23,955 bases of DNA from a virus. Of the stretch, positions 3,235 to 21,479 are shown piece by piece (the first letter of the stretch is position 1; each line of letters begins with the position of its first letter). The translations under genes and the position numbers were made by a program. The notes beneath the pieces are model-generated. The model saw only the letters and a list, made by a program, of their open reading frames with translations, was not told where the DNA came from and searched no databases. The stretch is taken from the IMG/VR virus record IMGVR_UViG_3300042465_003266, positions 1 to 23,955 of that record; one strand, written 5' to 3'.

Positions 3235-5234
3235 TGGCGCAATATTCGTTGCAGGAAATAATGTCTGCCCGCGATGCTGCCAGTGCCGCCGGCGACACAG
3301 AAAGCGTACAGGTGCTGTCGGCTGAGATTGACAGACTCCGCGGCCAGATCACCAGCAGCGTGCAGTCGCCTGACACCACAGCAGCAGGCGTGGTTGGGGC
3401 TGTCACCCGCGGGGCCGCTCCTGTCGCCACTGGTGCCGCTCTGGGCGCTTTGGCTGGCGCTCCTGTTGGTGGTATAGGGGCAGTGCCAGGCGCAGCCACA
3501 GGCGCAGCCATCGGCGGCCTAAGTACGCTTGTGGGCGATCCTGTCATCAATGCCGTGAACACTGCTTTCGGCACAAACTACTCTACGCCGACTGAGGCGA
3601 TGGAGTACATGCTGACCCGGATCGGTGTTCCAGAGGCCAGAAGCGAGGCCGAGAAAATCATTCAGACGGCCGTGGCTGGTGGCGCTGGCGCTGGCGGCAT
3701 GGCTGGCCTTGGCAGATCCATGCAGGCCCTTGGCACCACGCCACAGGCGCAGGCTGTCGGCCAGACGTTGGCCGCTCAACCTGTCCAGCAGATTGCTGGC
3801 GGTGCGGCTGGTGCTGCCACTGGTGAACTGGCTGGTGAGGCTGCTCAGGCGATGGGTGCAGGCCCAGTTGTCCAGACGGCTGCTGAGCTGGTGGGTAGTG
3901 TGGCTGGAGGTGCGGCAGGTGCCAGAGCCGCAGGACTTCGGGCGCGTGAGACTGCCATCCAGTTGCCCTCTGACATTGCCGAGGCTCAACGCCGTGGCAT
4001 TCGCGTTCTGACAACTGACGTTGTGCCGCCCAGGACGTTCATGTCCAAGTGGGTGCAGACCGTTGGCGAGCGCATCCCGTTTGTTGGTACCAGCGGGCAA
4101 CGACTGGCGCAGCAGGAAGAGCGGATAAGCGCCGTAAAGGATGTGCTGCGCGACTATGGCGTCACTGACATATCGCCAAACGTGCTTGCCTCTCAAACGG
4201 ACGATATATTTAAGGAATTGGCCTCGAAGCGTGCCGCAGACCTTGATAGATATGTATCTGCGAAAAAAGACGTTATTGAGCGCCTTGATACGATGGGAAC
4301 AGTGCCGGTAGACCGCACTGTGGCAAAGATTGACGATGAAATCGCAAAGCTCACTGCGCTTAAATCGGTCCAGTACAAACCAGCGATTGACATACTGGAG
4401 GACTGGAAGGCGTCTATTCAGGGTCAGGGGCTAAAGAACATCGAGGAGCTGCGGAAGGGCATCGGTAGCGCGTTCTCTGACCCTGGCCTTGCTGGCATAA
4501 AAACCACAGGCGAAGCCGCTCTCAACCGCATCTATGCACCTTTGCGGCAGGATATGGCGGACTTCATCAAGGCAAACGGAGAGCGTCGCGACTTCGACAA
4601 GTGGTCAGTCGCAAACAAGCGGCTTGAAAATATGTCTGGCGAACTCGAATCTTCAGCCCTCAAAACTGCGCTCGACAAAGGGGATATTACTCCAGAAGTG
4701 GTCGATAAAATGCTGTTCAGCCAGAAGCCCAGCGAGATCCGGCTACTGTACCGCAACCTGACGCCAGACGGCCGCGCACTGGTCAGAACCAGAATCATGT
4801 CGAAAGTGGCTGAGAGGTCTGGCGGGCTGGATGAGATCAGCCCACAGAAGTACCTAAGCGCAGTCCAAAAGTACGGTAACTCGGTCGGGGTGTTCTTTAA
4901 GGATGACGACCTTAAAAACATCGAAGGTCTGTCGCGTGCGCTACAATTCACCAGAAGGGCGCAAGAGGCAGCCGTGGCCCCGCCGACTGGTGTGCAGGCT
5001 GTCCCGATCTTGGGCGCTGACTTATTGATGCAGACCTTTGGCAACTTCATGGGCGCGACAGCAGCCGCGACGACGGCCGGTCTAGCGGCTAGACTGTATG
5101 AGTCGAAGCCTGTCCGCAATGCGTTTGCCAAGGTAGCGCAGACGGTGGAAGGAACGCCAGAAGAGGCGGCAGCGATTAAACGTGCGATGGCAGCACTGCA
5201 ACAGCAGGCCACGCAACAGCAGGAGAAAGAATAA
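3234..5234 (+). CDS. P22 gp16-like DNA ejection protein
   Basis: A 666-residue protein, near P22 gp16 in size, coupled to its upstream neighbour by TAATG. Residues about 45-100 and 140-225 are extremely rich in Ala, Gly and Val, with several stretches able to insert in a membrane. The central and C-terminal parts (about 240-600) are charged and helical, with repeated D/E/K heptads. In P22, gp16 acts from the virion during DNA entry and can associate with membranes, which fits these hydrophobic tracts. No lysozyme or transglycosylase signature was visible. The stop overlaps the tailspike start, again as TAATG, and the SD of the tailspike gene (AGGAGA, 5221-5226) lies in its last codons. Confidence 0.72.
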   Translation: MAQYSLQEIMSARDAASAAGDTESVQVLSAEIDRLRGQITSSVQSPDTTAAGVVGAVTRGAAPVATGAALGALAGAPVGGIGAVPGAATGAAIGGLSTLVGDPVINAVNTAFGTNYSTPTEAMEYMLTRIGVPEARSEAEKIIQTAVAGGAGAGGMAGLGRSMQALGTTPQAQAVGQTLAAQPVQQIAGGAAGAATGELAGEAAQAMGAGPVVQTAAELVGSVAGGAAGARAAGLRARETAIQLPSDIAEAQRRGIRVLTTDVVPPRTFMSKWVQTVGERIPFVGTSGQRLAQQEERISAVKDVLRDYGVTDISPNVLASQTDDIFKELASKRAADLDRYVSAKKDVIERLDTMGTVPVDRTVAKIDDEIAKLTALKSVQYKPAIDILEDWKASIQGQGLKNIEELRKGIGSAFSDPGLAGIKTTGEAALNRIYAPLRQDMADFIKANGERRDFDKWSVANKRLENMSGELESSALKTALDKGDITPEVVDKMLFSQKPSEIRLLYRNLTPDGRALVRTRIMSKVAERSGGLDEISPQKYLSAVQKYGNSVGVFFKDDDLKNIEGLSRALQFTRRAQEAAVAPPTGVQAVPILGADLLMQTFGNFMGATAAATTAGLAARLYESKPVRNAFAKVAQTVEGTPEEAAAIKRAMAALQQQATQQQEKE

Positions 5235-7141
5235 TGTCCGCACTTTCGATCAACCCGCCGTACCCGGTCTTTACCGACACGGAAGGCCAGCCGCTGGAAG
5301 ATGGGTATATCTGGATTGGGACGGCGAACCTTAACCCGCTGACCAGCCCCATCGTGGTCTATTGGGATGCGGCACTGACGCTCCCAGCCGGCCAGCCTAT
5401 CCGGACAGTGAATGGCTATCCTTCTCGGGCCGGCACGCCTGCGCGGTTGTACGCTGGTTCGGACTACTCGATCCAAGTGCAGAACAAGAACGGGTCGGTG
5501 CTGTATAGTGCGCCAGAGCCGACTGACCTTCTTTCGTCTAGTCTTGTGACGTTTATACAGGCTGGCACTGGCGCAGTTCAACGCACAGCGCAGAGCAAGA
5601 TGCGTGATTTTGTAAGCGTCAAAGATTTTGGAGCTGATGCAACTGGTGCTTTAGATTCTACAACTGCGATTTTGAACGCAATCATATCGTTGCGAGCCAA
5701 TCCAGTCACAATTTTAGACACCATAGGTGGGAATCTGATAACGGTATATTCATCTGGAACGGTTTATTTCCCACCAGGCGTTTACAAAGTCGCTCCTGAT
5801 CAGCTCAAAATTTATCAAGACTTGGGCCTTATCCTTAAAGGCTCAGGAAGCCGAAGAACAAATAATGCCGTTAAAGGGTCAACTACTCTTTTGATATCTG
5901 GCACATCGTCTGGTTTTGGCATTCAAGCCTACAGAAACGGCGGGCGTGGGTTGACCATAGAAGATATGGACGTGTGCTACGAAACGTCTGCGTTCACTGG
6001 ATCAGTTATCGACGTGCTGGATTGTCCAGGGGTTACATTAAATCGCGTCTATCTCGGGACATATGGCATAACTGGGCCTACCAGATTGACGACCGCAATT
6101 GCTTGCCTTCGTTCGACTTATGACGAGTTCATTACGCTGAATAACTGCGTTTTGAGTGGGGCGCAGAGGGGCTGGTGGTCTGACGATACGCGGACAGAAC
6201 TTGGCAATACTTTCGGCGGGAGCATTACGCATTTTAATGACTGCGTGTTTTATGACTTCTCCGAAAACATGGTCTATCACGGAGGAAGCCGCACAAGGGA
6301 AACGGTAAATTTCACGAATACTACTTTCAATCCGATTGCAGTTTCGCCTTCTAGTTCCGGCATCAACATGGATAACGTGGACGGCCTTAACATTCTTGGA
6401 TGCAACTTTGCTCCGTCCACAACCGAATACCCTGCGTCGCAATGGCTGCGCGCCACAAATGCAACAGCAGTTATTAATGGGAACATTTTTGGTGACTTGG
6501 CAGTTTCTGCCTTGTTGTCAGGGCAGATTAGCCTGAATGGAAATAAGTTCGCAGGCACTGCCGGCCCGACGATGAAGTCCGGCGTCATCAGCGGCGCAAA
6601 CAATGAGTTCCAGACAGGAACCGGCCCACTGATCAGTCCAGACAACTCAATTGTTGTTAATCTTGGCCCCGATCTTTTCAAGCCTGCGATAACTTATTCA
6701 TACGATATACCATCAGACTCCGCGTTTTTAGCTGGTCGCATTCATTACGACTCCGCAAGCGATGGATCTATCAATAAATTTAGGAACACGTCTGTTAGAG
6801 TGACGATCCGAAACGTTGATGAAAAGATTTTTGCTGTTTCTTCAACTCCATATGTACTGTCATCATTAGATACTGGCAGATGCATTCTTGCTTCCGGAGC
6901 AGGAAATCAAGCATTTGTTTTGCCTGCTCCTGTTCCTGGCACGCGCCTTTCTGTTTCTAAAATATCGTCCGTAAACTTAACGCTTACTTGCGCTGGCGGC
7001 ACCAACTATTACGGGCAAGGGAATTCTTATGACACGATAGCCACGCTGACAGGTGCAAATATGGGATCAATTGATCTTGAAGCATATGGTACTGTCGGAT
7101 GGATCGTAAGAACTGTGCAAGGAAATTGGGTATTCACATAA
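5234..7141 (+). CDS. Tailspike protein with P22-type head-binding domain and pectate-lyase-like beta-helix
   Basis: Residues 1 to about 110 match the P22 tailspike head-binding domain in pattern: NPPYPVFTDTEGQPLEDGYI at the start, then VYWD, RTVNGYPSRAGTPARLY and YSIQVQNKNG. Residues 126-138 (FVSVKDFGADATG) are the classic entry into a right-handed beta-helix of the pectate lyase superfamily, and the body (about 140-470) has the repeated short strands and N/G turns of such a helix. The C-terminal about 130 residues form a separate beta-rich domain. Tailspikes bind and usually cleave surface polysaccharide. Catalytic residues cannot be assigned by eye and the glycan is unknown. Base composition drops sharply at about codon 119, just before the beta-helix, so the specificity part appears to have been exchanged. 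Confidence 0.9.
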   Translation: MSALSINPPYPVFTDTEGQPLEDGYIWIGTANLNPLTSPIVVYWDAALTLPAGQPIRTVNGYPSRAGTPARLYAGSDYSIQVQNKNGSVLYSAPEPTDLLSSSLVTFIQAGTGAVQRTAQSKMRDFVSVKDFGADATGALDSTTAILNAIISLRANPVTILDTIGGNLITVYSSGTVYFPPGVYKVAPDQLKIYQDLGLILKGSGSRRTNNAVKGSTTLLISGTSSGFGIQAYRNGGRGLTIEDMDVCYETSAFTGSVIDVLDCPGVTLNRVYLGTYGITGPTRLTTAIACLRSTYDEFITLNNCVLSGAQRGWWSDDTRTELGNTFGGSITHFNDCVFYDFSENMVYHGGSRTRETVNFTNTTFNPIAVSPSSSGINMDNVDGLNILGCNFAPSTTEYPASQWLRATNATAVINGNIFGDLAVSALLSGQISLNGNKFAGTAGPTMKSGVISGANNEFQTGTGPLISPDNSIVVNLGPDLFKPAITYSYDIPSDSAFLAGRIHYDSASDGSINKFRNTSVRVTIRNVDEKIFAVSSTPYVLSSLDTGRCILASGAGNQAFVLPAPVPGTRLSVSKISSVNLTLTCAGGTNYYGQGNSYDTIATLTGANMGSIDLEAYGTVGWIVRTVQGNWVFT

Positions 7142-7151
7142 GGTATTGGCC

Positions 7152-7517
7152 ATGTTAAAGACTGTTTCAAATCAAATTCAACAATCGACCTATACACCAA
7201 CTTGGGGCGGTGGCACTGTTACTGTTAATTCTGCGTACTTTTCAAGGTCTGGAAATTTGATAACTGTTTTTTTTGATGTTCTTTTTGGAGCGTCAGCAAG
7301 CGTTGCAGATTCAGACCTTTCGCTCCCGACAGCAGGGGCTGTGACTTGGGGAACAGGTCAAGTAAATTACACAGACATTGGCGCAACACTGGTTATAAAC
7401 ATAGACCCAACTGCTGACAAAATACTGTTTAGATCAGCTATAAATGGCGGGAATCTCACCAGATTGGCAATGTCGGGTGTACGTGTCATTGCATCGGCAT
7501 CATATTTATCAGAATAG
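7152..7517 (+). CDS. Small tail-appendage / fibre-tip-like protein
   Basis: A 121-residue beta-rich protein starting at ATG 7152, with AAGG at 7140-7143; a TTG two codons upstream is less likely. The pattern YTPTWGGGTVTVNSAYFSRS followed by GNLITVFFDVLFG resembles a C-terminal domain found in many phage tail fibres and minor tail proteins, where a strand with Y-x-R-x-G-x-x-V/I-x-V-x-F/V recurs. It follows the tailspike by 10 nt and shares its low GC content (one sampled 60-nt line, 7261-7320, is 38% G+C against 65-70% in lines outside the module). It may therefore have moved together with the tailspike as part of one receptor-binding module. A role as accessory spike, chaperone or glycan-binding protein is inference. 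Confidence 0.6.
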   Translation: MLKTVSNQIQQSTYTPTWGGGTVTVNSAYFSRSGNLITVFFDVLFGASASVADSDLSLPTAGAVTWGTGQVNYTDIGATLVINIDPTADKILFRSAINGGNLTRLAMSGVRVIASASYLSE

Positions 7518-7527
7518 AGGAAAACAA

Positions 7528-7884
7528 ATGGCTACGAACTCACAAATCCCATTCATCCCACAAGGCGAAACCTACGTCATCCCTGCGGCTGCGGCTGCTC
7601 CGGCTGGCGTGCAGGTGCCGGTCTATCCCAAGTACGGCTACGACCCGAAAGGCCAGTACCGCATCGTCAACGCCAGTGCCAACCTCGTGCATCTGGCATG
7701 GGGCAACTCAGCCTCAGAAGCCCAGACCAAGGCGGTAGCGGCTGTGGCTGGCAACCCGTCCGAGACGGTTGTGCTGGTCGCTGGCGCGGTTGAGATCCTG
7801 CGCTTCCCGGTCGATGCCTTCTTCTCTGGCATCGCTCCTGCTGGCGCGTCCACGGTTTACATGGTTCAAGGCGAGGGTATCTGA
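7528..7884 (+). CDS. Small conserved phage structural protein
   Basis: ATG at 7528 follows AGAGG (7516-7520) by 7 nt and gives 118 residues; longer in-frame starts would run into the previous gene. The sequence has a compact beta-sandwich pattern: Ala/Pro-rich N-terminus, YRIVNASANLVHLAWG in the middle, then VEILRFPVDAFFSGIAPAG and a C-terminal VYMVQGEG. This pattern is familiar from small structural proteins of podoviruses and siphoviruses encoded near tail fibre or lysis genes, but I do not know its exact place in the virion. Base composition returns here to the high GC of the late operon, marking the right boundary of the AT-richer tailspike module. Confidence 0.6.
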   Translation: MATNSQIPFIPQGETYVIPAAAAAPAGVQVPVYPKYGYDPKGQYRIVNASANLVHLAWGNSASEAQTKAVAAVAGNPSETVVLVAGAVEILRFPVDAFFSGIAPAGASTVYMVQGEGI

Positions 7885-7885
7885 C

Positions 7886-8095
7886 ATGAAGAACGGCAAA
7901 ATGAAAAACGGCAAAGGCCCGTCAATCATGATCGCAGTGGCTATCCCATCGCGCCAGGCTAAGACCAAGGTCGAAGAGCGCAAGAAGAAGATGGAAGAGG
8001 CTGCCGAGATGAAGAAGGAAAAAATGGAAACGAAAGCGTATGAGGCCATGATTAAAGTGGCCAAGGGCGCGAAGTCAAAGAAGAAGGGGAAGTGA
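7886..8095 (+). CDS. Lys-rich small basic protein, unknown function
   Basis: 69 residues from ATG 7886, with GAGGG (7873-7877) 8 nt upstream and one base after the previous TGA. The N-terminus carries a short direct repeat (MKNGKMKNGKG). The middle to C-terminal part (about residues 25-69) is one long K/E/M-rich helix predicted to be coiled coil, ending in a KKKGK tail. Predicted charge is strongly positive. No family was recognised. A nucleic-acid or scaffold-binding role is possible, but the sequence does not show one. The next gene, also tiny and Lys-rich, starts one base after its stop, so the two are probably translated together. Confidence 0.55.
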   Translation: MKNGKMKNGKGPSIMIAVAIPSRQAKTKVEERKKKMEEAAEMKKEKMETKAYEAMIKVAKGAKSKKKGK

Positions 8096-8096
8096 C

Positions 8097-8204
8097 ATGG
8101 CAGCCAAGCCTAAAGCCAAGCCGTTCAAGCCATGCGCTGCTTGCCCTAGCCCTGCGAAGTGTAAGGCTGCCGGCCAGTGCCTGCTGAAAGCCAAGAAGAA
8201 GTAA
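8097..8204 (+). CDS. 35-residue Cys/Lys-rich miniprotein
   Basis: A very short gene: ATG 8097, TAA 8202-8204, with a GGGGAA purine tract just upstream and only one base between the previous TGA and the ATG. The product has ten lysines and four cysteines spaced C-x2-C-x5-C-x5-C (residues 13, 16, 22 and 28), inside AACPSPAKCKAAGQCLLK. Four regularly spaced cysteines in 35 residues suggest a metal-binding knuckle. Tight packing between two other genes and the lack of any other use for this stretch support it as a gene. The function is unknown; a redox-sensitive or zinc-bound DNA/RNA-binding peptide are possibilities only. Confidence 0.5.
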   Translation: MAAKPKAKPFKPCAACPSPAKCKAAGQCLLKAKKK

Positions 8205-15593: not shown

Positions 15594-15847
15594 GCTGCCA
15601 CCTCTTCTACTATGCAGGCAGAAAGGCGCTTTTTCTTGCCGACTTCGCGCTGGGAGATGCCAGCCGCGTTGAAGGTTTGGCGCTTTGCCCCGGTACGGCT
15701 CTGGTAGCCGTTAGGAGCCTCGCCATCAATTGTCAGCACCTTAACTACAACAGCCATGCCTTTACTTACCTGCTCAGCCTCTGCCGTTATTTCGACAGAC
15801 CGCCAGCCGGCAGGAACCATCACACTTGCTTGGTATTTAATGATCAT
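15590..15847 (-). CDS. 85-residue hypothetical protein
   Basis: ATG 15847 has AGGA 7 nt upstream and is favoured over the in-frame ATG at 15937, which lies inside a strong hairpin and lacks an SD. The product is beta-rich with a basic tail: MIIKYQASVMVPAGWRSVEI at the start, AVVVKVLTIDGEAPNGYQSR in the middle, then GKKKRLSACIVEEVAA. No motif was recognised. Its stop overlaps the start of the Sak4-like gene (ATGA), so it is probably translated together with the recombination genes. It could be a small accessory nucleic-acid-binding protein, but the sequence does not prove it. Confidence 0.6.
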   Translation of the reverse strand: MIIKYQASVMVPAGWRSVEITAEAEQVSKGMAVVVKVLTIDGEAPNGYQSRTGAKRQTFNAAGISQREVGKKKRLSACIVEEVAA

Positions 15848-15903
15848 TTGTAAGTCCTCGGTTGATACGCCTGTCGGGGAATCCGGTCGGCGTTTGGTCA
15901 GTG

Positions 15904-15946
15904 TAGACCCTGATGCCCACTCGTCAAGAATGGGCATGGAGGTCTA
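15904..15946 (-). promoter_or_regulatory. 43-nt RNA hairpin beginning at a stop codon
   Basis: Read on the minus strand, TAGACC pairs with GGTCTA (outer 6 bp). A symmetric 3x3 internal loop follows, then ATGCCCA pairs with TGGGCAT plus three more pairs (TTC with GAG, one of them G-U) around a 5-nt TTGAC loop. The first three bases are the TAG stop of the 75-residue gene. The hairpin buries the ATG at 15937 and ends 57 nt before the start at 15847. No T-run follows, so it is not a typical terminator; mRNA processing, stability or translation control are possible. Confidence 0.6.
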
Positions 15947-16171
15947 GTGCTTAGCCCCGTATACGCTAACTTGGCGGTTGCAAATGACAATCACCGATCC
16001 ATCATAAAATGTATAACTGGTCGTTTCGTTCTCCCAGTCCTGATGCACGTCTTGCGCGATTTCCTCGCAATCCTCAATAAGGATTTTCCAGTCGAAATCT
16101 CCAAAAGTTTCTACACCATTAGCTGGATTGATTGAAACGTAAAAGGCTTTGATTCTTGATGCAATGTTCAT
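15944..16171 (-). CDS. 75-residue hypothetical early protein
   Basis: ATG 16171 has GGGAG 8 nt upstream, in the same hairpin-plus-ribosome-binding-site arrangement found in front of the 78-residue gene at 16805. The protein is acidic with a mixed alpha/beta pattern (MNIASRIKAFYVSINPANGV, DFDWKILIEDCEEIAQDVHQ, then YDGSVIVICNRQVSVYG). No family was recognised. It is the second gene of the second duplicated regulatory unit. Its TAG stop is the first element of a strong hairpin. As an early phage protein of small size it could modify host functions, but nothing in the sequence indicates a target. Confidence 0.6.
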   Translation of the reverse strand: MNIASRIKAFYVSINPANGVETFGDFDWKILIEDCEEIAQDVHQDWENETTSYTFYDGSVIVICNRQVSVYGAKH

Positions 16172-16207
16172 AACTGCTACTCCCTGAGGGGCGCTTACGC
16201 GCCCTTC
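16172..16207 (-). repeat. Stop-straddling hairpin plus RBS, copy 1
   Basis: On the minus strand, GGGCGC and GCGCCC (16204-16199 and 16194-16189) enclose GTAA, whose TAA is the stop codon of the 101-residue gene. The downstream arm is followed by GGGAGTAGCAG and then the ATG at 16171. The same 19 bases AAGGGCGCGTAAGCGCCCC, and the same distance to the next ATG, occur at 16806-16841. Confidence 0.8.
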
Positions 16208-16500
16208 CTCGCGTGGATTTTTGAGCATTCTTCGGTCAGGATGCGCTCTTGCTCTTCCTGCGATACTGGCTCCCACTGGTCAATCTCGTGCTGCTCAATG
16301 GCGGCCATGCCTTGGTCTGTAACGCCGACAGTCTCGCCGTTCGTCCAAACCAGTCCGGCCTCAAGTGCCTTTGAAAACACGCCTTTGTCATGGTTGGTTT
16401 TTACCACTTCGCTGATCCAAATATGTCGACCACCAAAATCATAAAATTTTGATTCATCAATGATTGCTTGCATGAACTTGATTTGATTTTCGGTTGCCAT
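16195..16500 (-). CDS. 101-residue hypothetical early protein
   Basis: ATG 16500 follows the repeated leader, which supplies an AGAGG-type SD. The N-terminal helix (MATENQIKFMQAIIDESKFY) and central part (KGVFSKALEAGLVWTNGETV, then GVTDQGMAAIEQ) give a helix-helix-beta-wing pattern reminiscent of a winged-helix domain, with an acidic C-terminal tail. No family was recognised. It ends in lysine-glycine-alanine and a TAA stop inside a hairpin, exactly like the 164-residue gene of the first unit, although the two proteins are otherwise unrelated. It may be a DNA-binding or protein-binding early regulator; this is only a hint from the layout. Confidence 0.6.
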   Translation of the reverse strand: MATENQIKFMQAIIDESKFYDFGGRHIWISEVVKTNHDKGVFSKALEAGLVWTNGETVGVTDQGMAAIEQHEIDQWEPVSQEEQERILTEECSKIHARKGA

Positions 16501-16550
16501 GTCTCTTTACCTCTGGTTACTGCCGGTCGGGTGATTCCGTTTGGCATAGG
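16501..16550 (-). repeat. Repeated 5' leader, copy 1
   Basis: The 50 bases before the ATG at 16500 match the 49 bases before the ATG at 17323. Both begin CCTATGCCAA and share CGGAAT, ACCGGCA and TAACCAGAGGTA; by hand alignment 37 of the first 43 positions agree. Each contains the SD-like AGAGG close to the start codon. The downstream proteins are unrelated, so the repeat is regulatory rather than a gene duplication remnant. Confidence 0.8.
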
Positions 16551-16553
16551 AAT

Positions 16554-16582
16554 ATATTAACCGTAAGGTTAAAATCCTGCAA
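16554..16582 (-). promoter_or_regulatory. Putative early promoter before 101-residue gene, with operator-like palindrome
   Basis: On the minus strand, TTGCAG (16582-16577), a 17-nt spacer and TAATAT (16559-16554) resemble a sigma-70 promoter. TTGCAG lies 26 nt before CCTATGCC, exactly as in the second leader. The spacer and -10 overlap the perfect inverted repeat TTAACC-GTAA-GGTTAA (16557-16572), well placed to be an operator. The -35 lies inside the 3' end of the 78-residue gene. Confidence 0.5.
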
Positions 16583-16805
16583 GACCTTTTTTCTCGTAAT
16601 ACTGAAAATCTTTGAAGTAGCCTACCCATTGTTCAAGCGTCAGGTCGCTAACCTTATAGACGTAGACAGAGTTAGATCGGCCCCACTTGGGACTCATCCC
16701 GCCGATGGACTCGCCATCGAAGTAGAAATAGCCTTTACCCTTGATAAGCTCGGCCGTTGGGTCGAGCTTGCGGATGGCTTTGTTGACAGTGGCAATCTTG
16801 ATCAT
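16569..16805 (-). CDS. 78-residue conserved early phage protein
   Basis: ATG 16805 is preceded by GGGAGTAGCAG after the stop-straddling hairpin. The protein begins IKIATVNKAIRKLDPTAELI and continues with KGKGYFYFDGESIG, SVYVYKVSDLTLEQW and an aromatic C-terminus. This pattern (a helix, then G-x-G-Y-F-Y-F and S-V-Y-V-Y-x-x-x-D-L-T-L-E-Q-W) recurs in small phage and plasmid proteins of unknown function. The mixed alpha/beta layout with exposed aromatics suggests a compact binding domain. It is the second gene of the first duplicated regulatory unit. Its stop TAA overlaps the operator-like palindrome of the next promoter. Confidence 0.7.
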   Translation of the reverse strand: MIKIATVNKAIRKLDPTAELIKGKGYFYFDGESIGGMSPKWGRSNSVYVYKVSDLTLEQWVGYFKDFQYYEKKGLAGF

Positions 16806-16841
16806 TGCTGCTACTCCCGGTGGGGCGCTTACGCGCCCTTT
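16806..16841 (-). repeat. Stop-straddling hairpin plus RBS, copy 2
   Basis: GGGCGC and GCGCCC (16838-16833 and 16828-16823, minus strand) enclose GTAA with the TAA stop of the 164-residue gene. GGGAGTAGCAG and the ATG at 16805 follow at the same distance as in copy 1. The three bases between hairpin and RBS differ (ACC here, TCA there), while stem and RBS are identical. Confidence 0.8.
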
Positions 16842-17323
16842 ACGTTTACGAGTACCCGCTGGTGCAGGCGTTGGATAGTGTGGCCGCCAGCTACGATGGA
16901 CTGGATTTTTACGCGCATTGTGTCGTTGACGGTGAAAATTCCGTCAAATCCGTCTGTGCAGTAAACAACCTCGGCGCTGTTCACCGTCTCAACACCAGCC
17001 TTGGCAAGCTTGGCAGCAATGCTCTGGTTGCGCTTCTTTGCAGTGGCAGCCGCATTTTTGCGCATGAATGCTTCGACGTTGGAAATGCTGTTGCCATTGA
17101 AAACGCTGTACCAAGTCTTACCACCACAAATTGCCCAGAGTTTCTGATACTTGCCTCCCAACTCGCCTTTGGCGTTGAGGATTTTGTATTCCTCAGACTT
17201 TTTGAACTCGCGCAGTGCGTTTGCGCGGTCAAGAGCCCATGCAACGTCGCCCTCAGCGATCTGCCCATCCTGCTCTGCGAAGAAAGGGGCAAGTTCTTTG
17301 GCAATGGTTTCGATGGCGTTCAT
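16829..17323 (-). CDS. 164-residue conserved early phage protein
   Basis: First gene of the early minus-strand operon, with promoter and leader directly upstream. The N-terminal part is helical (AIETIAKELAPFFAEQDGQI, then EEYKILNAKGELGGKYQKLW). The C-terminal part (about residues 95-164) contains NQSIAAKLAKAGVETVNSAE, then YCTDGFDGIFTVND and QSIVAGGHTIQRLHQRVLV. The TDGFDGxF and IxAGGxxIQxxHxRVLV pattern recurs in early proteins of many phages, often close to replication genes; its biochemical role is unknown to me. It lies where a lambda-like phage would carry the repressor gene opposite cro, but has no HTH or peptidase motif, so it is not a CI homologue. It ends K-G-A within the repeated hairpin. 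Confidence 0.7.
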   Translation of the reverse strand: MNAIETIAKELAPFFAEQDGQIAEGDVAWALDRANALREFKKSEEYKILNAKGELGGKYQKLWAICGGKTWYSVFNGNSISNVEAFMRKNAAATAKKRNQSIAAKLAKAGVETVNSAEVVYCTDGFDGIFTVNDTMRVKIQSIVAGGHTIQRLHQRVLVNVKGA

Positions 17324-17372
17324 TGTCTGTACCTCTGGTTAGTGCCGGTTGGTCAATTCCGCTTGGCATAGG
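17324..17372 (-). repeat. Repeated 5' leader, copy 2
   Basis: Second copy of the leader described at 16501-16550, ending at the ATG of the 164-residue gene. Differences are concentrated in TTGA against TCAC (after CGGAA) and a few single bases; CCTATGCCAA, ACCGGCA and TAACCAGAGGTA are kept. Confidence 0.8.
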
Positions 17373-17375
17373 GAA

Positions 17376-17404
17376 ACTATACCTGCGGCCCTCCTGCACT
17401 GCAA
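17376..17404 (-). promoter_or_regulatory. Putative main early promoter (leftward)
   Basis: Minus strand: TTGCAG (17404-17399), 17-nt spacer, TATAGT (17381-17376; five of six match TATAAT). The same TTGCAG lies 26 nt before CCTATGCC in both leaders. Transcription would start about 45 nt before the 164-residue gene. The palindrome found in the other copy is absent, so the two promoters may be controlled differently. Confidence 0.55.
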
Positions 17405-17422: not shown

Positions 17423-17438
17423 TTCACCTTGAAGTTAA
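17423..17438 (+). promoter_or_regulatory. Operator-like site before cro
   Basis: TTCACCTTGAAGTTAA agrees at 12 of 16 positions with TTAACCTTACGGTTAA (minus strand of 16572-16557), the palindrome in the second leftward promoter. It overlaps a possible rightward -35 (TTGAAG, 17429-17434), with a weak TAGCCT (17452-17457) 17 nt further. A shared binding site for Cro or an absent repressor is plausible. Confidence 0.4.
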
Positions 17439-17454
17439 ACCCTTTGTGGTCTAG

Positions 17455-17477
17455 CCTGTTGATTCAACCCCAACAGG
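17455..17477 (+). promoter_or_regulatory. Inverted repeat covering the cro ribosome binding site
   Basis: CCTGTTG (17455-17461) and CAACAGG (17471-17477) form a 7-bp stem with a 9-nt loop. The 3' arm contains the first bases of the SD AGGAGG (17475-17480). In RNA this would hide the SD; in DNA it is a 23-bp palindrome that a dimeric repressor could bind. Both readings are open. Confidence 0.5.
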
Positions 17478-17488
17478 AGGCAATCCGC

Positions 17489-17668
17489 GTGACAACCCAG
17501 GAAGCAATAGACCACTACGGCAGTATCAGGGCATTGGCTGATGCCCTCGATATGTGGCCTCAGGTTATCTATAGGTGGGGCGAGTACCCGCCAATGGCCC
17601 GGCAGTACGAGATACAGGTCAAAACAAAAAACAAACTCAAGGCCGAGAAACAAGATGCAAAAAGGTGA
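17489..17668 (+). CDS. cro: Cro-like repressor (P22 Cro / YdaS-type)
   Basis: A 59-residue protein from GTG 17489 with a perfect AGGAGG 8 nt upstream. In-frame ATG 17429 would add residues encoded by the control region and is unlikely. The HTH is TTQEAIDHYGSIRALADALD (2-21), turn MWPQ, recognition helix VIYRWGEYPP; the arrangement IDHYGS-x-x-A-x-A-D-A-L and W-x-x-x-x-P matches P22 Cro, which has ALGISDAAVSQWKEVIP at the same place. The C-terminus is basic (KTKNKLKAEKQDAKR). It is the first gene of the rightward operon, divergent from the early leftward operon, as cro is in lambdoid phages, and overlaps the primase gene by 14 nt. Confidence 0.85.
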   Translation: MTTQEAIDHYGSIRALADALDMWPQVIYRWGEYPPMARQYEIQVKTKNKLKAEKQDAKR

Positions 17669-19544
17669 AGCCGCTTTACTTTACGCTTCATGGGGCTGGC
17701 GGGTGCTGCCAGTCGTACCTAATGGCAAGCTGCCAGCGACACAGCACGGAGTGCATGACGCCACGATTAACCCCGAGGTCATTACCCGCTGGTGGGCAAC
17801 CAACCCAGACTACAACGTAGCCATAGCGGCCGGAGAAGGCTCCGGGATCGTGGTCTTTGACATAGACCCGCGGAACGGCGGGACTGAAAGCTGGGACGAA
17901 TGGACGGCTACCAACGGCAGGCCGCCAGACTGCGCCATGCAGCTAACCGCTGGAGGCGGCCAGCACTATCTGGCTCAATGGGACGAGTCTATCCGATCCT
18001 GCAAGCTTGGCGAGGGCATAGACCTGCTGTCCAATGGGCGCTACTTCGTGGCATACCCTTCGACCATCGAGGGCCGGCGCTATGAGTGGGAGGCCAGCTC
18101 TGACCCGATGGAAGGAGTCGGGCCGTTTGCCATCCCGATCCGATGGAAGATTGCCATTGATGCCAAAAAGCGCACACAGCGCGAGGCAAAAGGAGTGGCC
18201 AGTGGTGGGCTGATCCAGGGCAACCGGAATGATGGCCTGACCAGCCTGGCCGGTGCTATGCGGCATTTCGGGATGACCGAGGCAGAGATTCTGGCCGCTA
18301 TCAGCATCGCTAATGAAACCCGCTGCGAGATACCGCTACCGTCCAGCGAAATCCGGCAGATAGTGCATTCGGTGTGCCGGTATGAGCCAGACTCAGACGT
18401 GGCCGCCTCAATGGCCCTTGGCAGTCAGGCCGCGGAGGCCCTGCTGGCCGCAGCAGACGAGCCGAGCGAGGACTACTACCTGACACGCGCCACGTCGTTT
18501 CTGAGCCAGCCTGCGCCTTTGCAGTGGATCATCAAGGGATGGCTGCCGGCCAGCAGCACCACGATGGTATTTGGCGAGTCAGGCGTTGGAAAGACCTTCG
18601 TCAGCCTTGATATATCTTGTTCCATTGCTACGGGCTTATCTTGGAACAACAGAAAAACAACAAGCGGCACAGTAGTTTACCTTGCTGGAGAGGGTAATTA
18701 CGGCATCAGGCAACGGGTCGCCAGTTGGGCCTTATCGAATGGCGTGGACAACCTAGACAACCTGCTGATCAGCAATAAGGCGATTGACATGGACAGCCCA
18801 GGTGCGGCCGCTCAAATCCTAAAGGCTATCCGCACCCTGACAGACGGCACCGTCACGCTGGTTGTAATAGATACCCTCAACAATCACATGAGCGGGGATG
18901 AGAATTCGGCCCGCGACACTCGCGCTATGCTGAACGCCTGCAACATAGTGGCAACAGCCGTCAAAGCCTCGGTCATGCTGGTGCATCACGTTGGCCATCA
19001 GGCCGAGAAGGTCAGGGCGCGTGGATCATCAGCATGGAGAGCTGCCCTTGATACCAGCATCGCCGTCATGCGATCTAAGGACGATGACAAGCTGATAGAG
19101 GTTTCCTGCACAAAGATGAAGGACGGCCCCGATCCTGAGCCGATTTATGGCCGACTGTCGCCCGTTGACCTAGGCTGGGCAGATGAGGATGGCGAGGTCA
19201 TCTACGGGGCTGTTTTCGCTATTGAGGACGCTCCTGCTCCGGCTGAAAAGAAGGAATCCGAGTTCAGATCCGAGATCAGAAAGTTCAGCAACGCATGGTG
19301 GAAAGCAGGGGCAGAGGTCATGGTCGGAATGCCCTATGTGGCCCGAAATGACCTCATCAAATACTTGGTCGAGAACGAGGGAGTGAAGGAGGACACGGCC
19401 AAAATGTACGTCAAGGAGAGCAAGAAAGGACGCTTGGTATACAACCTGTTGACCGCTCAGATTATCACCGCACATGAGCGAGGCTGGATAGTTTCTGATC
19501 AGGCTACCGCCTCTCAACTGCTGATACAGAAGGGACAGGCATGA
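17655..19544 (+). CDS. Primase-polymerase / RecA-like helicase fusion replication protein
   Basis: Start ATG 17655, overlapping cro; 629 residues. Domain 1 (about 1-165) is a bifunctional primase-polymerase: WRVLPVVPNGK, an IVVFDIDPRNGG acidic motif (Asp69, Asp71), GGGQHYL (100-106), and GIDLLSNGRYFVAYPS (121-136). Domain 2 (about 185-245) is the helical primase C-terminal type, with QGNRNDGLTSLAGAMR and IRQIVHSV. Domain 3 (about 295-480) is a RecA-fold helicase: Walker A GESGVGKT (307-314), AGEGNYG with Glu346, Walker B VVIDTLNN (403-410), HHVGH (444-448). The C-terminus resembles a winged helix. Such fusions start phage DNA replication and unwind DNA. The phased GGGACA array directly follows. 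Confidence 0.9.
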   Translation: MQKGEAALLYASWGWRVLPVVPNGKLPATQHGVHDATINPEVITRWWATNPDYNVAIAAGEGSGIVVFDIDPRNGGTESWDEWTATNGRPPDCAMQLTAGGGQHYLAQWDESIRSCKLGEGIDLLSNGRYFVAYPSTIEGRRYEWEASSDPMEGVGPFAIPIRWKIAIDAKKRTQREAKGVASGGLIQGNRNDGLTSLAGAMRHFGMTEAEILAAISIANETRCEIPLPSSEIRQIVHSVCRYEPDSDVAASMALGSQAAEALLAAADEPSEDYYLTRATSFLSQPAPLQWIIKGWLPASSTTMVFGESGVGKTFVSLDISCSIATGLSWNNRKTTSGTVVYLAGEGNYGIRQRVASWALSNGVDNLDNLLISNKAIDMDSPGAAAQILKAIRTLTDGTVTLVVIDTLNNHMSGDENSARDTRAMLNACNIVATAVKASVMLVHHVGHQAEKVRARGSSAWRAALDTSIAVMRSKDDDKLIEVSCTKMKDGPDPEPIYGRLSPVDLGWADEDGEVIYGAVFAIEDAPAPAEKKESEFRSEIRKFSNAWWKAGAEVMVGMPYVARNDLIKYLVENEGVKEDTAKMYVKESKKGRLVYNLLTAQIITAHERGWIVSDQATASQLLIQKGQA

Positions 19545-19658
19545 GGGGGACAAAAGGGGACAGACAGGGACAAATAGGGACAAATGTCCCCACGGCAAAG
19601 GCGAGGCAGAGGGGGACAGACAGGGACAACACCCTTTAGGGGTGTCCCCACTTGTCCC
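19532..19658 (+). repeat. Iteron-like array of GGGACA / TGTCCC with 10-bp phasing
   Basis: GGGACA begins at 19532, 19547, 19557, 19567, 19577, 19613 and 19623, and its complement TGTCCC at 19585, 19643 and 19653. Neighbouring units inside each cluster are 10 bp apart, i.e. about one helical turn, so bound proteins would line up on one face. The array begins in the last codons of the primase-helicase and continues into non-coding sequence. A 6-bp hairpin (ACACCC/GGGTGT, 19629-19645) is nested in it. Such an array next to the replication gene suggests an initiator-binding origin. Confidence 0.75.
19541..19639 (+). CDS. Possible 32-residue peptide encoded inside the GGGACA array
   Basis: ATG 19541 overlaps the stop of the primase-helicase (ATGA), and a frame stays open for 32 codons to TAG 19637-19639. 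The product (MRGTKGDRQGQIGTNVPTAK and 12 more residues) is basic and repetitive because it is written by the DNA repeat. The open frame may be a by-product of the iterons; only the coupled start speaks for translation. Confidence 0.2.
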   Translation: MRGTKGDRQGQIGTNVPTAKARQRGTDRDNTL

Positions 19659-20134: not shown

Positions 20135-20289
20135 TCTACGACATCATCGCCCGGACAATGGCCGCGCTCCTGATCGCACTGCTGATGCCGTTTATCCTGA
20201 TGGTGTTCCTGCTGGTGGCTACCGTGGCTATGGTGCGGACGCTTTTTGAACCTAAAGACAAAGACCCTGACTTTTGGGATGAGAAATGA
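20131..20289 (+). CDS. 52-residue single-pass membrane protein
   Basis: ATG 20131 overlaps the previous stop and its own stop overlaps the next start, both as ATGA, so it is locked between two genes. Residues about 9-36 are hydrophobic (MAALLIALLMPFILMVFLLV and six or more further residues), a long membrane helix; the C-terminus is charged (FEPKDKDPDFWDEK). Such small inner-membrane proteins in phage replication or early regions are sometimes involved in superinfection exclusion or anchoring, but this cannot be concluded here. Confidence 0.65.
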   Translation: MIYDIIARTMAALLIALLMPFILMVFLLVATVAMVRTLFEPKDKDPDFWDEK

Positions 20290-21479
20290 AACAGGCTCGC
20301 CATCCGGCCGAACAGGTCACGCAAATGCCCATCGAGCGGCTAATACCCTACGCTCGCAACAGTCGAACCCACAGCGACGCCCAGGTGGCGCAGATCGCCG
20401 CCAGCATCAAAGAGTGGGGATGGACTACGCCCGTCCTGATTGATGAGGGCGGGCAGATCATTGCCGGCCACGGACGCATCATGGCAGCCCGTAAACTCGG
20501 CATGGCCGAAGTGCCAGTCATCATTGCCGAGGGCTGGACGGAGGCACAGAAAAAGGCCTACGTCATCGCAGACAACAAGCTTGCCCTAAACGCAGGATGG
20601 GATGAGTCCCTGTTGGCGTTGGAGTTTGGTGAGCTGGAAGGTTTGGGCTTTGACCTCGAGCTGACAGGCTTTAGTCTTGACGAGATAGCCGCCCTCAAGC
20701 CGGAGGAAGTGCCTGCCGCGCTGACCGACGAGGACGATGTGCCAGAGGTGCCGTCCGATCCAGTCACGCGCCTAGGCGACGTTTGGCTGCTTGGGCAGCA
20801 CCGGTTGATGTGTGGTGACAGTACAATGCTTGGTGATGTTGAGATGTTGATGGGCGGCGTATCGCCAGACTGTATACACACCGATCCACCGTATGGCATG
20901 AATGCAGTCAGCAAATCATCCGTTCTCAAAAAAAACTACAAGCAAGACATTCTTGGAGACGACACGCCTGACGTGGCAAAAGACTCATTCCGGCTTGTCT
21001 ATGGTTTGTGGCCAGATGCCAAGCAGATCTGGTGGGGAGCCAATTATTACTGCTCTGTTCTGCCAGACAGCGAATGTTGGCTGGTATGGGACAAAGACAA
21101 CGGCCAGTCAGATCAAACCGATTGCGAGCTTGCTTGGGCCAACTTTAGAAGCGTGGTTCGTCAATTTACCATGGCGTCCGAAAAGAAAAACCGCGTGCAT
21201 CCTACTCAAAAGCCAGTAGCGTTGATGGAGTGGATTTTTCGGCGGTTCAAATTGTCTGTTAAAACAGTGGCAGACTTTTTTGGTGGTTCGGGGACAACAT
21301 TGATAGCCGCAGAGAAGAATGGAGTTCAGGCTTTTGTCATGGAGTTCGATCCTCGGTTTTGCGACGTCATCGTAAAGCGCTGGCAAGATTACACCGGCAA
21401 GCAGGCAACGCTTGAATCCACTGGTCAAACATTCGCGGAGGTGAGCCATGGCAAAGCCAGCCAAACCGAAGCAGCCTAA
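20286..21479 (+). CDS. ParB-like N-terminal domain fused to DNA methyltransferase
   Basis: 397 residues, ATGA-coupled to the upstream gene. Residues about 12-100 are a ParB/Srx N-terminal domain: IERLIPYARNSRTHSDAQVA, then IKEWGWTTPVLIDEGGQIIAGHGR with the GHGR-type nucleotide-binding box (61-64) and VIADNKLAL. The C-terminal part is an amino-methylating DNA methyltransferase with permuted motifs (beta class): TDPPYGM (motif IV, Asp200) first, and VADFFGGSGTTL (motif I, 328-339) near the end. This fusion is common near phage terminase genes and probably methylates adenine or cytosine in phage DNA; the site is unknown. Some of the linker between the motifs (about 20900-21250) is AT-richer than its surroundings. 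Confidence 0.9.
   Translation: MKQARHPAEQVTQMPIERLIPYARNSRTHSDAQVAQIAASIKEWGWTTPVLIDEGGQIIAGHGRIMAARKLGMAEVPVIIAEGWTEAQKKAYVIADNKLALNAGWDESLLALEFGELEGLGFDLELTGFSLDEIAALKPEEVPAALTDEDDVPEVPSDPVTRLGDVWLLGQHRLMCGDSTMLGDVEMLMGGVSPDCIHTDPPYGMNAVSKSSVLKKNYKQDILGDDTPDVAKDSFRLVYGLWPDAKQIWWGANYYCSVLPDSECWLVWDKDNGQSDQTDCELAWANFRSVVRQFTMASEKKNRVHPTQKPVALMEWIFRRFKLSVKTVADFFGGSGTTLIAAEKNGVQAFVMEFDPRFCDVIVKRWQDYTGKQATLESTGQTFAEVSHGKASQTEAA

Follow-up and report, generated by a model that had tools for sequence, protein, structure and literature searches.

Two small genes of this viral sequence place their stop codons inside the loop of the same perfect hairpin, and in both cases the next gene begins a fixed, short distance beyond the hairpin's foot. 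The window, by which we mean the whole 23,955-nt stretch analyzed (IMG/VR record IMGVR_UViG_3300042465_003266), holds two exact copies of GGGCGC-GTAA-GCGCCC, at 16189-16204 and 16823-16838 on the minus strand, and none further. Based on comparison of related and unrelated viral sequences, the hairpin, the stop codon in its loop, the covarying stems, the constant distance to the AUG and the different genes that occupy the slot ahead of it are established. The role of the hairpin is a matter of more tentative interpretation; the reading that we favor, while stopping short of calling it probable, is that of a modular element between cistrons, which marks the limit of the downstream initiation site and insulates it, as one piece of the unchanging frame around a gene-swap slot.

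Results

A duplicated unit with two stop hairpins

The features of the region, listed in the direction of transcription, are as follows.

17326..17372, minus strand: leader repeat before A1; hairpin at 17343-17368, outer stem TGCC/GGCA, inner stem imperfect in this copy
16829..17323, minus strand: gene A1, 164 aa, slot gene, no family found (ORF list, family searches)
16823..16838, minus strand: stop hairpin 1, GGGCGC(GTAA)GCGCCC; TAA 16831-16829 is the A1 stop (exact match, folding, covariation)
16806..16822, minus strand: 17-nt linker CACC-GGGAG-TAGCAGCA from hairpin 1 to gene B1, Shine-Dalgarno inside
16569..16805, minus strand: gene B1, 78 aa, phrog_9154 (function unknown), also kept downstream of the slot in L196 and L198
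16504..16550, minus strand: leader repeat before A2; hairpin at 16521-16546
16195..16500, minus strand: gene A2, 101 aa, slot gene, no family above cut-off (ORF list, family searches)
16189..16204, minus strand: stop hairpin 2, GGGCGC(GTAA)GCGCCC; TAA 16197-16195 is the A2 stop (exact match, folding, covariation)
16172..16188, minus strand: 17-nt linker CTCA-GGGAG-TAGCAGTT from hairpin 2 to gene B2, Shine-Dalgarno inside
15944..16171, minus strand: gene B2, 75 aa, no family above cut-off, unrelated to B1
15867..15893, minus strand: third leader hairpin copy, ACGCC...GGCGT, before a gene with its ATG at 15847

The initial annotation had described the hairpin at two sites, with the TAA in its loop, proteins ending in Lys-Gly-Ala, the next ATG 18 nt on and nineteen shared bases, and all of this holds. 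The exact 16-mer carries the stop of the 101-aa and 164-aa reading frames, both A proteins have the C-terminus Lys-Gly-Ala, 17 nt lie between hairpin and ATG at both junctions (the A being the 18th base), and the 19 nt AAGGGCGCGTAAGCGCCCC have the same letters at both hairpins. A window-wide search for GGGAGTAGCAG returned these two sites only, downstream of the hairpins and ahead of the ATG, and the gap from stop to ATG is 23 nt in both cases. Allowing up to three mismatches, the 16-mer has four matches in the window (the two sites on both strands) against 0.36 expected, and 0 of 100 shuffles reach four; its recurrence exceeds chance.

A larger duplicated unit around the hairpin pair had been overlooked. 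The two hairpins sit in a 42-nt repeat at 88%, and another repeat, 47 nt long at 85% (16504-16550 and 17326-17372), precedes both upstream genes, so that the thing duplicated is a unit consisting of leader, gene A, stop hairpin with ribosome site, and gene B. Comparison of A1 with A2 and of B1 with B2 gave no detectable relationship. The unit starts just past a P22 Cro-like gene on the opposite strand (PF14549, E 5e-15) and runs toward the gene for a Sak4-like annealing protein (phrog_124). A distant blastn search with 15900-17400 against phage records returned no match.

Over 52 nt, the stop regions of the two junctions fold at -13.8 and -16.6 kcal/mol, values that are unremarkable against dinucleotide shuffles (z -0.8 and -1.4). 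The case for an RNA structure is comparative and does not come from single-sequence energy. The window has no match in Rfam at E 1, and 14 loci have none at gathering score. Judged by its letters, the GUAA loop of the window hairpins fits the GNRA pattern (G-N-R-A).

Different genes in the same slot

Protein comparison identified the relatives: gene B led to L198 (93%), L196 (79%) and the distant L199 (45%), and a Sak4 protein search led to L201, L202 and L203 at 97-99%, among 80 loci kept. L198 and L048 are one contig, and L201 and L202, which agree over 1980/1980 compared bases, were counted once. A different small gene stands ahead of the hairpin in each of L196, L198, L203 and L201; the L198 gene is cut by the contig end, beyond which its leader lies. 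Comparison of the six slot proteins (A1, A2 and those of the four relatives) gave no convincing similarity, the best E being 0.010 over 24 aa, and five of the six end in GA and one in PA. The five comparable slot leaders are 41-48/52 identical.

Each of the six slot genes, all distinct, finishes in a stop-in-loop hairpin; TAA is always inside the loop, and three different stems occur. GGGCGC(GTAA)GCGCCC ends A1, A2 and the slot gene of L048/L198, GGCGCC(TAAT)GGCGCC ends those of L196 and L203, and TGCCAGC(ATAA)GCTGGCA ends that of L201/L202. The TAAT and ATAA loops do not fit GNRA. In L201/L202 and L203 the hairpin is kept, but a new promoter-like stretch follows it in place of a close gene start; insulating the next gene is thus not its sole use. 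L199 has neither a slot nor a hairpin ahead of its gene B, and the slot is absent from the more distant Sak4 relatives (50 loci, 170 nt upstream read).

The leader hairpin

The leader in front of the slot has a two-tier architecture, with an outer stem of 4-6 bp and a core like AACGGAATnnCCCGAC, and precedes several genes. The third copy in the window lies downstream of a promoter-like match at 15927-15900, and the same leader occurs upstream of the Sak4 gene in L201, L203, L204, L206, L210, L215, L229, L242, L281-L284 and L287. In an alignment of 17 leaders, hand-picked so that each distinct type among the leaders read is represented once, pairing holds in 96.6% of cells and 5/7 pairs change on both sides, with 29 cells of both-sided change against 7.8 in shuffled alignments (0/500). 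The hairpin ends 17-23 nt before the AUG in the 11 measured of the 17 aligned sequences. The leader hairpin had no Rfam match in the loci tested, and it may represent a new structured leader RNA in these phages, with a possible role in antitermination or stabilization. Promoter-like TTGCAG...TATAGT/TAATAT stretches are visible by eye in both leader repeats; a consensus scan gives only 15927-15900.

Covariation and an unrelated phage

The same anatomy recurs in L044, an unrelated phage (L073 is the same phage, 2700/2700 bases) for which blastn against phage records matched only terminase genes, in three records of which two are Pelagibacter phages. Six stop-in-loop junctions lie within one gene cluster (4866-8143, minus strand, reverse-complement coordinates). 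Five have a GTAA loop, on the stems GGGCGC (two), GCCGC, AGCCGC and GGGGC, and the sixth has the stem AAGCCGC and the loop GTGA; by their letters, GUAA in five of the six and GUGA in the sixth fit GNRA. An AAC or TAC linker follows these hairpins, and then a Shine-Dalgarno. Across 12 junctions, a set that mixes two lineages, has related rows within a lineage and uses a stem register chosen by the analyst, 94.4% of cells pair and both-sided changes affect 4/6 pairs. Cells with both-sided change number 9 against 3.0 when shuffled (0/500), and slid controls score far lower.

Occurrence across viral sequences

The exact 16-mer was found at 77 sites in 75 viral contigs. For a loop control, the stem GGGCGC was held fixed and the loop varied, duplicates by context were removed, and reading frames of at least 60 aa were considered. 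The GTAA loop then gives 65 distinct sites, 29 of which have an ORF end in the loop and 23 also a ribosome site and ORF behind it, compared to 37, 13 and 5 for GTGA and 24, 6 and 1 for GTAG. Set against pooled usage of G-preceded stops at the same loci, the 23:5:1 split has a chi-square of 26 and a p of 2e-6, which is rough because the loci were picked by pattern. As GTGA is also a GNRA loop and is not enriched, the preference is possibly for TAA and not for the tetraloop fold. These direct counts of ORF plus ribosome site were used in place of a greedy gene caller, which missed obvious gene ends (its end-site counts were 15 for GTAA, 5 for GTGA and 0 for GTAG).

The hairpin is not common to phages in general, as gene ends at large are not enriched in it: 3/840 arbitrary viral gene ends (the L080-L197 set) and 1/546 in the Sak4 set have the stop in the loop, and the former figure marks it as a device of certain lineages. 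Hairpins at viral gene ends generally lie some 15-42 nt past the stop. The exact ribosome-site pattern GGGAGTAGCAGNNATG was set aside as mostly chance, a hairpin directly ahead of it being seen only in L048 and L196 among at least 119 stretches.

Further stems appeared in a set of T7-like portal genes, a label that is a reading of gene order and not a family search. The set returned 28 loci, of which 27 gave a readable gene end, L381 being excluded because it stops within the gene; a perfect stem of at least 6 bp with the stop in the loop occurs in 8/27. Four of the eight (L363, L364, L372 and L373) are contigs already picked by the 16-mer. The remaining 23 ends comprise four with a stop-in-loop hairpin (stems CCGGCGC twice, CTGGCGC and CGCCGC), two with a 4-bp stem and 17 with none, and 4/23 is an excess over the arbitrary 3/840 (p 1e-5, among related and non-independent phages). 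Recurrence in relatives, in L044 and at portal gene ends answers the search of other phage junctions that the initial annotation had suggested, and disposes of the idea that the motif might be absent elsewhere. Across L363-L390 the hairpin at portal ends looks as if its place were shifting, since some of these phages have a stop-in-loop form where several others carry a GC-rich hairpin at a greater distance downstream.

Geometry and predicted accessibility

The foot of the stop hairpin lies 17-20 nt from the A of the next AUG at 10/10 hairpins that precede a gene; at 23 other viral sites, the smallest distance is 17 and the largest 55. A position 17-20 nt before the AUG is approximately the 5' edge of the footprint of an initiating ribosome. 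With a gap of about 23 nt and a hairpin held at least 17 nt off the AUG, the only place left for it is on the stop codon, and this distance rule may be the whole reason why the stop lies in the loop.

The downstream Shine-Dalgarno starts 10-14 nt past the stop, outside the stem, with no predicted masking by the hairpin, whose 5' arm has a predicted pairing of 0.69-1.00. Averaged over 10 junctions, the predicted openness of the Shine-Dalgarno is ~0.43 for the native sequence; it falls to ~0.38 if the 5' arm may not pair and rises to ~0.57 if a ribosome occupies the stop. Individual junctions deviate in either direction, and the first L044 junction behaves oppositely (0.06 native vs 0.35 with the arm barred). 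Openness that is nearly independent of the hairpin indicates that the hairpin does not serve as a lock for translation to open.

Discussion

In the insulation reading, the hairpin, which carries the upstream stop in the loop and has the 3' foot 17-20 nt ahead of the next AUG, would fold whenever it is free of ribosomes. Once folded, it would wall off the linker, the Shine-Dalgarno and the AUG from pairing with the upstream coding sequence, and could hinder the drift of terminated ribosomes. Gene B would then rely on its own Shine-Dalgarno for translation and depend little on gene A. Such insulation would be useful in a fixed frame that has the leader hairpin in front, the stop hairpin behind and an exchanged small gene between them. 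We infer both the insulation and the exchange via shared flanks, the latter in a phage that encodes a Sak4-like annealing protein. An unmasked Shine-Dalgarno, together with the lower re-initiation published for comparable structures, favors insulation and leaves mRNA stabilization as its main rival. Against insulation, the predicted gain in openness from the hairpin is small (0.43 vs 0.38), and a terminating ribosome covers the hairpin, which therefore presents no barrier ahead of that ribosome. Further, the 23-nt gap of the window falls where bacteria show a depletion of such structures (PMC7518266).

The rival that survives best, though we regard it as unlikely, is that the hairpin is an mRNA 3'-end stabilizer or processing mark, which would protect the upstream RNA from 3'-5' decay or be cut, with the stop in the loop as the closest possible spot. 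Retention of the hairpin before a promoter-like stretch and not a gene start in L201/L202 and L203 speaks for a stabilizer, as do the GC-rich hairpins further downstream of several T7-like portal genes that lack the stop-in-loop form and the hairpins 15-42 nt past the stop at viral gene ends generally. However, each terminating ribosome would open the structure, and the constant AUG spacing at the six L044 junctions of one cluster is needless for a pure 3' stabilizer.

A recombination boundary is improbable as the primary role. Here the hairpin and leader repeat would be short homologies for exchange by the Sak4-like annealing protein, and folding would be incidental. The slot itself fits this idea, with differing genes between common flanks, leaders 41-48/52 identical, one hairpin common to three slot genes and another to two, and Sak4 encoded by the phage. 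At the mosaic joints of lambdoid phages, short conserved boundary sequences similarly flank the exchanged genes, but in the present case it is the RNA structure that is kept while the letters change. The stem is rebuilt in other letters with pairing retained in L201/L202 and L044, whereas homology arms would preserve the letters instead.

The initial annotation had proposed that the hairpin, melted by a ribosome that terminates in the loop, may couple the translation of two genes; in this reading, the melting switches on the next gene. The stop does coincide with the hairpin, and re-initiation is possible across 23-nt gaps, as described for the fr lysis gene (PMC12548453). Yet the Shine-Dalgarno and AUG lie outside the hairpin and the predicted openness of the Shine-Dalgarno (~0.43/0.38/0.57) barely depends on it, structure beside stops lowers re-initiation in the published library (PMC7518266), and the hairpin is retained without a next gene in L201-L203. 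This coupling thus finds little support, and we give it a poor chance. The weakest alternatives, a transcription terminator or chance followed by duplication of one lucky palindrome, are very improbable and largely refuted: whole-unit duplication would copy a hairpin and the single-sequence z-scores are weak, but the coding strand has no T-run after either stem, just as the initial annotation had noted in doubting a terminator (a weak terminator-like match, 16822-16839, is on the opposite strand only), and the same anatomy with different stems recurs in relatives and unrelated phages against 3/840 arbitrary viral gene ends. Three other candidates were dropped: lambda boxB-like antitermination (no boxA was seen upstream by eye), T4 gene 60-like bypassing, and readthrough (A1 has a second in-frame stop within a few codons).

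Within the known systems, the closest kind to the insulating hairpin proposed here is the ribosome termination structure (RTS), which is described in bacterial genomes as lying downstream of the stop, near the footprint edge of the terminating ribosome, and as depleted at gaps <25 nt (PMC7518266, a paper in which the word phage is absent). A stable structure just past the stop lowered re-initiation in a synthetic operon and was proposed as an insulator (Chemla et al. 2020, PMC7518266), and PMC12548453 likewise ties such structure to less re-initiation. The likeness is that of a stable mRNA structure at a gene end, to which a shielding of the next gene against re-initiation is ascribed, and the window energies of -13.8/-16.6 kcal/mol over 52 nt pass the -6 kcal/mol criterion, which was set for a 40-nt window (PMC7518266). 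The RTS model also asks for greater stability than codon-preserving shuffles across five consecutive windows, where the z-scores of the two junctions (-0.8 and -1.4) refer to dinucleotide shuffles. In contrast, the window hairpin sits on the stop and not after it, and its 23-nt gap misses the rule of at least 25 nt or a next gene on the opposite strand (PMC7518266). Coupling by RNA unfolding, as reviewed in PMC12548453, shares a hairpin between co-directional genes that is opened by the upstream ribosome, but there the structure masks the downstream initiation site and the window hairpin does not. By analogy only, the integron attC site is also a stem-loop 3' of an exchangeable gene, with a reported effect on translation of the next cassette (PMC8876359); the window hairpin differs in being a perfect 16-mer whose loop contains the stop. 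In the literature covered, from which subscription journals mostly fall out, we recognized no account of a phage junction hairpin that has a stop codon as part of its loop.

It is conceivable, if rather doubtful, that these hairpins form an unnamed class of phage element, with the stop in a G-UAA/G-UGA tetraloop (GNRA), a C-G-closed stem and a foot 17-20 nt before the AUG. The class would serve as serial modular punctuation in at least two unrelated groups and, in the window lineage, would be paired with a similarly spaced leader hairpin as the frame of the slot. Should insulation prove true, some phages would be able to add accessory genes to an operon without disturbing the neighbors, and the 16-nt stop-in-loop hairpin, taken together with the 17-nt linker, would make a small part that is easily moved to other constructs. 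It would also offer a test of whether structures under the terminating ribosome, and not only those beyond it, control re-initiation.

Several other features of the window were observed. A palindrome, TTAACC-TTAC-GGTTAA, lies at 16557-16572 at the end of gene B1 and overlaps the promoter-like stretch, identified by eye, of the second leader repeat; it could serve the Cro-like protein encoded at 17429-17668 as an operator. Clustered GGGACA-type repeats (family D1) at 19538-19629, directly after the primase-helicase gene, could be replication iterons. Lastly, positions 20286-21479 encode a DNA methyltransferase fused to a ParB-like N-terminal domain.
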